Below, piece after piece: positions 53,193-54,229 of a DNA stretch of 64,000 nt (within the stretch, counting starts at the first letter, position 1; each line of letters begins with the position of its first letter). The position numbers and the translations under genes were made by a program. The notes beneath the pieces are model-generated. The model was not told the DNA's origin, ran no database searches, and was given only the letters and a program-made list of their open reading frames with translations. The stretch is from Thioalkalivibrio paradoxus ARh 1 (GTDB taxonomy: Bacteria; Pseudomonadota; Gammaproteobacteria; Ectothiorhodospirales; Ectothiorhodospiraceae), in the NCBI RefSeq assembly GCF_000227685.2, contig NZ_CP007029.1, positions 2,268,501 through 2,332,500 on the forward strand, read 5' to 3'.

Positions 53193-53211
53193 GGCCGGAG
53201 CACGGGCACCA

Positions 53212-53242
53212 GACCCCGTGCGCCGGTCCGGCCCACGGGGTC
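53212..53242. terminator. hairpin between convergent genes
   Basis: GACCCCGTG and CACGGGGTC form a 9-base stem enclosing an inner GCCGG/CCGGC pairing. It lies 20 bases past the Lrp gene and about 85 bases past the peroxiredoxin end; no T-run follows. Confidence 0.55.
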
Positions 53243-53327
53243 GACTTGCATCAAAGGTAGCCAGAGCGGCGGGGCGAAAACGCCTCCACCGCGCTGGCGA
53301 GAAACCCGGCGATGGCCGGGGATCAGG

Positions 53328-53933
53328 TCACTCCATTGAGGGCTTCCACACCTGCCAGACCCTGCCGACCAGGTCGGGGCCGGGCTTGAGGGTGGGTTTG
53401 CCGGGCTCCCAGCCCGCGGGCATCGCTTCCTTACCGCCCGATGCCCTTACGGCCTGATACGCCTGAACCTGGCGCACCGTTTCCGCGAGCTTGCGGCCGA
53501 CGGGAGGCGTCAGCACCTCCATCGCCTGGATCACGCCGTCGGGATCGATGATGAAGCGACCCCGCAGTTCGATGCCCTGGGTCTCGTCCCACACGCCGTA
53601 GGCGCGTCCGACATGCCCTGCCTGGTCCGAGGCCATGTGGAAAGGTATGCCGCCTTCCACCATCTTGCTCAGTTCGACCTCGTTCCAGATCTTGTGGACG
53701 AAGTGGCTGTCCACGCTGACCGCAATGACTTCCACACCCAGTTCCTGCAATGTCTGATATTGTGCGGCGACCGCCGACACCTCAGTGGCTCAGACAAACG
53801 TGAAATCGCCGGGGTAGAAGCAAAGCAGAACCCACTTGCCGGAGAAATCGGACAGCTTCGCATTGGTGAAGCTTCCGCGGTAAAACGCCGGCGCGGTGAA
53901 ATCGGGGGCTTTCTCGCCCACGCGGACACTCAT
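53328..53933 (-). CDS. selenocysteine peroxiredoxin (UGA decoded at the peroxidatic position)
   Basis: Read through one in-frame TGA (53790-53792), this is a 201-residue AhpC/Prx1-type peroxiredoxin that reduces hydroperoxides. The N-terminal half is DFTAPAF...[14 protein letters not shown] and the C-terminal half [28 protein letters not shown], continuing to [11 protein letters not shown]. The TGA replaces the peroxidatic Cys of the family PxxxTxxC site (PGDFTFV-U48-ATE). A SECIS-like hairpin follows at the proper distance. Both sides keep full coding quality, and AAAGGAGGA precedes the ATG. The resolving Cys expected before PAGW is Met (KEAMPAGW), so this is a one-Sec enzyme. The usual Pro after the active residue is Ala. 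A plain nonsense mutation is the alternative, made unlikely by the hairpin. Confidence 0.88.
53754..53785 (-). promoter_or_regulatory. bacterial SECIS element in the peroxiredoxin mRNA
   Basis: Starting 10 bases after the UGA, GUG-U-CGGC-GGUC-GCCG-CAC forms a 7-base-pair stem with one bulged U and a GGUC apex. A lower stem CUGA/UCAG (5-8 and 33-36 bases after the UGA) extends it. A bulged U and a GGUC loop are the features SelB recognises in the E. coli fdhF element. There the GGUC lies 19-22 bases after the UGA; here it lies 18-21. Confidence 0.85.
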
Positions 53934-54229
53934 TCTGACATCCTCCTTTGGTGTACTGGATTCGGTGGGTGGGGGGCGTTCCGATGCCGGGGCTTCATCC
54001 ACGGCGCCGGACACCCGTGCACACCCTACGGGTTGCTCTTCCATACTGCCTCCCAGACGGATTGGTCCTGACAGCAGAGGCATACCCGACCGTGCAGATG
54101 AGTGCCTGCCAAAACCGGATACCGCCCGCCCGACATGTGCCGGCCCGGACCCGAGAGCGGGAAGCGCACTCGGCCTCAAGGCGAGTATGGTCGGCGGGGC
54201 GCGGGGCTGCAACCAACCGGAGAGGTGCG

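Follow-up and report, generated by a model that had tools for sequence, protein, structure and literature searches.

A predicted selenocysteine peroxiredoxin of the PrxU family in Thioalkalivibrio paradoxus ARh 1, with a probable second, internal start site

The genome of Thioalkalivibrio paradoxus ARh 1 consists of one contig of 3,756,729 bp. The 64,000-nucleotide stretch of it analyzed here (the window) carries a complete prxU gene on the minus strand, which is also the strand of all other window features given below. Translation of positions 53933-53331 yielded a 201-residue AhpC/TSA frame whose sole interruption is a TGA at 53792-53790, in the sequence PGDFTFV-U-ATE. This confirmed the preliminary description of the locus, according to which two parts of one AhpC-type protein lie in the same frame and are split only by this TGA. 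The UGA and the frame had been placed correctly; the strand had not been stated, and the start assigned at 53933 proved to be short by 37 codons, the frame remaining open upstream to an ATG at 54044-54042 that adds 37 residues. The long reading frame (53328-54044) comprises 238 residues with Sec85, plus the stop codon, and its N-terminal extension, which contains a G/S-C-A-R motif, is conserved in most family members; RefSeq uses the corresponding long start in Peptoclostridium acidaminophilum. The short reading frame (53328-53933, the coordinates of the preliminary description) begins at an internal ATG that is kept, together with its Shine-Dalgarno sequence, throughout the family, and comprises 201 residues with Sec48, plus the stop codon. 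According to translation and homologue alignment, the in-frame UGA (53790-53792; codon 48 of the short form and 85 of the long form) occupies the peroxidatic position, as in TxxU peroxiredoxins.

The protein matched the NCBIfam model NF040737 (peroxi_PrxU) with 366.9 bits, against a curated cut-off of 270 bits; in the whole-genome search the match spanned model positions 2-232 and included the N-terminal part of the model (about 2-34). The Pfam AhpC-TSA domain was also matched. An AlphaFold model had a mean pLDDT of 89, and Foldseek aligned it with Prx3 and Prx2 at TM scores of about 0.87-0.89, with AhpC structures matched as well, indicating a peroxiredoxin fold. The expectation that automatic annotation would call such a gene as two broken genes does not generally hold now: NCBI has the PrxU model, and the P. 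acidaminophilum gene is a single RefSeq CDS.

No recognizable sigma-70 promoter was found upstream of prxU, nor was a consensus terminator found downstream. A GC-rich hairpin with only a short T tail lies just after the stop codon (53304-53321; z = -3.45 on folding). Beyond it, prxU converges with an Lrp-like gene, and between the two is a very stable double hairpin (53208-53300; -62.3 kcal/mol, z = -5.42). A sub-threshold Rfam match to the sRNA ncr1175 at the same positions (33 bits, cut-off 60) was set aside as chance or as terminator structure. A search for a conserved operon partner within 3 kb on either side of 81 loci found nothing common to more than 7 of them.

The mRNA just downstream of the UGA refolded as previously described, into a 29-nt hairpin with a 7-bp stem (53762-53780) and a GGUC apical loop (53769-53772) at 18-21 nt past the UGA, one bulged U lying four pairs below the loop. 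A published model of the bacterial SECIS element (bSECIS) asks for a small apical loop that has G in its first two positions and lies at a distance of 16-37 nt from the UGA on the 3' side (PMC13188914); the small loop of this hairpin, with G in its first positions, falls within that range. Rfam returned no match at the hairpin. The bSECIS of E. coli fdhF likewise has a GGUC loop and a bulged U four pairs below it; compared with this element, the T. paradoxus hairpin is shifted by one base (GGUC at 18-21 versus 19-22 nt after the UGA) and has a different stem sequence. The isolated 29-nt hairpin was more stable than most shuffled sequences (z = -1.86; 6/200), but a stretch of 53 nt folded with ordinary energy (z = 0.14). 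A chance hairpin is argued against by conservation, including that of the TGA itself (80/80 loci, see below), and by covariation, not by folding energy.

When the structure was laid on 82 sequences, 90.9% of cells were paired, and 97 two-sided changes were counted, as compared with 28.9 ± 3.9 in shuffled alignments and no more than 32 when the structure was slid to other positions. With pairs numbered from the U of the UGA, the best covarying pairs coincide with third codon positions. Pair 18-27 occurs as G-C, A-U, C-G and U-A, and the outer loop positions 21-24 are G-C in 57 sequences and A-U in 25, never mixed, around a middle G and U that are invariant in this set. This covariation at synonymous sites extends to the outer bases of the GGUC/AGUU loop and sets limits on what SelB recognizes. 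The lower stem is variable: roughly one sequence in five lacks pairs 16-29 and below, and T. paradoxus has one of two alternative forms in the family, the one with the bulged U. Conservation of the hairpin in the PrxU family is strong but not universal. Six PrxU-like loci with TGA from a second set of genes, five from Clostridia (L170-L174) and L175, have not kept the GU tetraloop hairpin; downstream sequence resembling TCACACATAGCCGT is found in L170-L174, and L175 has another sequence there. These loci may use another type of bSECIS, or their recognition may be altered.

A search of the genome for selA, selB, selC and selD, which the preliminary description had named as a check, recovered all four: selA (583 bits), selB (465 bits), a tRNA-Sec with anticodon UCA (selC) adjoining selB, and two selD matches over the cut-off. 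The selA, selB and tRNA-Sec genes form a cluster at a distance of about 200 kb from prxU. One selD is close to this cluster; the other (G000:C1:1145820-1146737) is elsewhere, lies within an 896-residue open frame and is possibly a fusion. About 10 kb before selA, an FdhA-like gene (G000:C1:2518485-2519762) contains an in-frame TGA at DTQARI-U-HAPTVASL. This formate dehydrogenase-like gene is likely to be a second selenoprotein gene, and the Sec machinery is therefore not there for prxU alone. In a Burkholderiales bin with two selB genes, prxU lies 97 bp upstream of one selB on the same strand (L034, 5001-7643); this pair is possibly a mobile Sec cassette that brings its own selenoprotein.

Homologues were compared at the UGA codon. 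All 80 nearest loci in species-representative genomes, from about 20 phyla, carry TGA at this codon, and the hairpin is conserved with it. In the class Anaerolineae, a PrxU gene was detected in 64 of 249 sampled genomes, with an in-frame TGA in all among the matches listed; in Clostridia, TGA was present in all 10 genomes over the PrxU cut-off and in one below it. Sec peroxiredoxins had been said to exist in a few bacteria; their existence is borne out, and "few" is too low an estimate. The closest Cys forms, from the search of Clostridia, scored 206-219 bits and differ from the Sec forms in other respects besides. Of 39 genomes with a homologue, most of them draft bins, 33 had a selB match over the cut-off and 6 had no selB match. 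Among Anaerolineae, selB occurs in 60/64 PrxU-bearing genomes versus 203/249 overall, rows compared by eye. In a sample of the genus, PrxU exceeded the cut-off only in T. paradoxus and a sister genome (G010), both with selB, while one further genome (G017) has selB and no PrxU. The sister genome has the same UGA-containing prxU gene rather than the truncated relative that would have spoken against a selenoprotein. Between these two genomes, dN/dS was 0.047 before the UGA and 0.058 after it; purifying selection acts with equal strength on both parts, and a decayed 3' part is therefore excluded.

A pseudogene, in which a Cys peroxiredoxin was broken by a TGC-to-TGA mutation or a sequencing error, would account for a single in-frame stop at a Cys position that is one base away from TGC, but we rejected it as exceedingly improbable, given that all 80 nearest homologues and the sister genome share the TGA, purifying selection is strong beyond it, synonymous third positions covary in the hairpin, and the genome has complete Sec machinery. 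Termination at the UGA, or its readthrough by a near-cognate tRNA, with mostly a truncated peptide of 47 or 84 residues as the product and some other role for the hairpin, is also very unlikely. Sec insertion is generally inefficient, as this reading would have it; however, PrxU goes together with the Sec machinery, the bSECIS geometry fits, and a GU loop with a covarying stem would be needless for non-specific readthrough. Taken together, the conserved UGA, the hairpin, the Sec machinery, the sister gene and the purifying selection past the UGA support the original reading of the locus, and we predict with high confidence that T. paradoxus prxU encodes a selenocysteine peroxiredoxin of the known PrxU family, its Sec insertion and activity being deduced from sequence. 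SelB with Sec-tRNA(Sec) would bind the hairpin just 3' of the UGA, and Sec would be inserted at the peroxidatic position as residue 48 counted from the internal start or 85 from the long start.

Each of the two candidate starts has its own Shine-Dalgarno sequence: GGGAGG (54049-54054) precedes the ATG of the long start (54044-54042) by 4 nt, and AAGGAGG (53942-53948) precedes the internal ATG (53933-53931) by 8 nt. An N-terminal tail with a G/S-C-A-R-like motif, 30-36 residues before the peroxiredoxin domain, was present in 78 of 83 genes, one of which (L029) looks like a chance match; family comparison places the Cys of this motif at Cys8 of the long T. paradoxus form (GCAR; codon at 54021-54023). 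The extension (53934-54044) and the internal Shine-Dalgarno/ATG pair also occur upstream of prxU in L009-L088, L095 and L180.

We then compared pairing with the anti-Shine-Dalgarno sequence at the internal ATG, chosen by a fixed rule, with the pairing of versions in which codons had been resampled for the same amino acids. Across 82 genes the mean was -9.70 kcal/mol at the internal ATG and -5.65 kcal/mol in the resampled versions; the natural site was the stronger in 78 of the 82. A second set of 29 genes from a profile search gave -10.60 and -6.31 kcal/mol, respectively, with the natural site stronger in all 29. Other in-frame ATGs, after the UGA, averaged only -4.07 kcal/mol in the first set and -4.45 kcal/mol in the second. 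The p-values of this test overstate independence, because the rows are related. Glu codons before the internal ATG are predominantly GAG (133, versus 36 GAA), whereas GAA prevails in the gene body (769, versus 623 GAG). In addition, four genes (L025, L046, L047 and L051) lack the extension and have kept the internal ATG and its Shine-Dalgarno sequence.

It could be argued that only the long start at 54044 is used and that the internal AAGGAGG..ATG arises incidentally from the linker, which is rich in Lys and Glu, whose codons yield AAGGAG-like DNA; RefSeq, moreover, gives just the long form of P. acidaminophilum PrxU (240 residues). We regard exclusive use of the long start as rather unlikely, however: codon resampling preserves the amino acids of the linker and loses much of the pairing, Glu codon choice before the internal ATG departs from that of the gene body, the later in-frame ATGs pair poorly, and the internal site persists in the four genes without an extension. 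A second, internal in-frame start in the PrxU family is thus likely but unproven, and production of a long and a short isoform from the two starts has good support in sequence. In the founding paper, PrxU of P. acidaminophilum reportedly had 203 residues and Sec47; such a protein would agree with use of the internal start in that species.

Typical 2-Cys peroxiredoxins (AhpC, human Prx1-4) share with PrxU the fold, the PxxxTxxC/U motif and the C-terminal 1-cysPrx_C domain. T. paradoxus PrxU differs from them in having Sec for the peroxidatic Cys, Met171 for the resolving Cys, an extra Cys38 and the N-terminal extension. The Met171 codon (53421-53423; short-form numbering, as for Cys38) was located by domain match and alignment at the site of the typical resolving Cys, where the sequence is EAMPAGW instead of a VCPA motif. 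Cys38 (codon at 53820-53822), ten residues before Sec, was found without exception in a first set of 81 Sec forms, for which one of six search patterns contained Cys38 (a mild bias), and in 40 of 41 of a second set obtained by profile search. In contrast, just 16 of the 81 sequences in the first set have the C-terminal resolving Cys. In the four related Cys forms used for comparison, the C-terminal Cys is kept and residue 38 is Val.

In the predicted catalytic cycle, the Sec selenolate would reduce hydrogen peroxide or organic peroxides and become a selenenic acid, which would then be reduced by a thiol. Since the resolving Cys is Met171 here, this thiol must come from elsewhere: the selenenic acid may be reduced by Cys38, by Cys8 of the tail, or by an external reductant such as thioredoxin, among which we make no choice. 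A cycle of the 1-Cys type, in which an external thiol acts directly on the selenenic acid and neither Cys38 nor Cys8 is resolving, is a real possibility. It is consistent with the lack of a C-terminal resolving Cys in most members and with the AlphaFold model, in which Sec48 is at the start of helix 47-57 and Cys38 lies in core strand 34-39, where it may be buried. The near-invariance of Cys38 in Sec forms, its replacement by Val in the Cys forms that retain the C-terminal Cys, and the presence of the tail Cys in most genes argue against it. We also tentatively propose that two conserved starts produce long isoforms with the GCAR tail and short isoforms with the peroxiredoxin domain only, both containing Sec, across about 20 phyla, and that the tail Cys and/or Cys38 replace the C-terminal resolving Cys. 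If so, recycling of the Sec enzyme could be tuned by the relative use of the two starts. Two leads go beyond the preliminary description, the likely internal start across the family and the swap of resolving cysteines, and they make specific predictions about Sec peroxiredoxin recycling and real start sites.

The PrxU family is already known; T. paradoxus prxU adds a member to it, from an unusual host. The founding member, PrxU of Peptoclostridium (Eubacterium) acidaminophilum (Sohling et al. 2001, doi 10.1515/BC.2001.123, as cited in PMC8533274), is 65.5% identical over 96% of the T. paradoxus query. Both genes have the UGA at the same codon and the hairpin at the same distance, with the loop AGUU in P. 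acidaminophilum and GGUC in T. paradoxus, and both proteins have the N-terminal GCARP extension, a shared Cys stretch and no C-terminal resolving Cys. The hosts differ: P. acidaminophilum is a strict anaerobe (Sohling et al. 2001), whereas T. paradoxus ARh 1 is an obligately aerobic sulfur oxidizer from Kenyan soda lakes (PMC4653848). In the Sargasso Sea metagenome the same TxxU selenoprotein family ranked second in abundance, with 43 Sec peroxiredoxin genes (PMC1088965); it was represented by 12 genes in a 2006 genome survey (PMC1794560), and recent reviews have an entry for TxxU peroxiredoxins (PMC13188914, PMC9312934). A limited literature search found no paper on T. paradoxus prxU, on a conserved internal start or two isoforms, or on the Cys38 pattern.

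T. paradoxus, an obligately aerobic, haloalkaliphilic gammaproteobacterium, belongs to a lineage that seldom carries PrxU. Gammaproteobacteria outside Vibrionales and Pasteurellales had just one selenoprotein family in the 2006 survey (PMC1794560), and only 1 of 398 genomes in our Pseudomonadota sample, that of T. paradoxus, had PrxU. In a tree, T. paradoxus and its sister genome fell into a small set composed mostly of Pseudomonadota plus one Chloroflexota row; the group around this set has many Chloroflexota and Acidobacteriota. Transfer of prxU between phyla is plausible.
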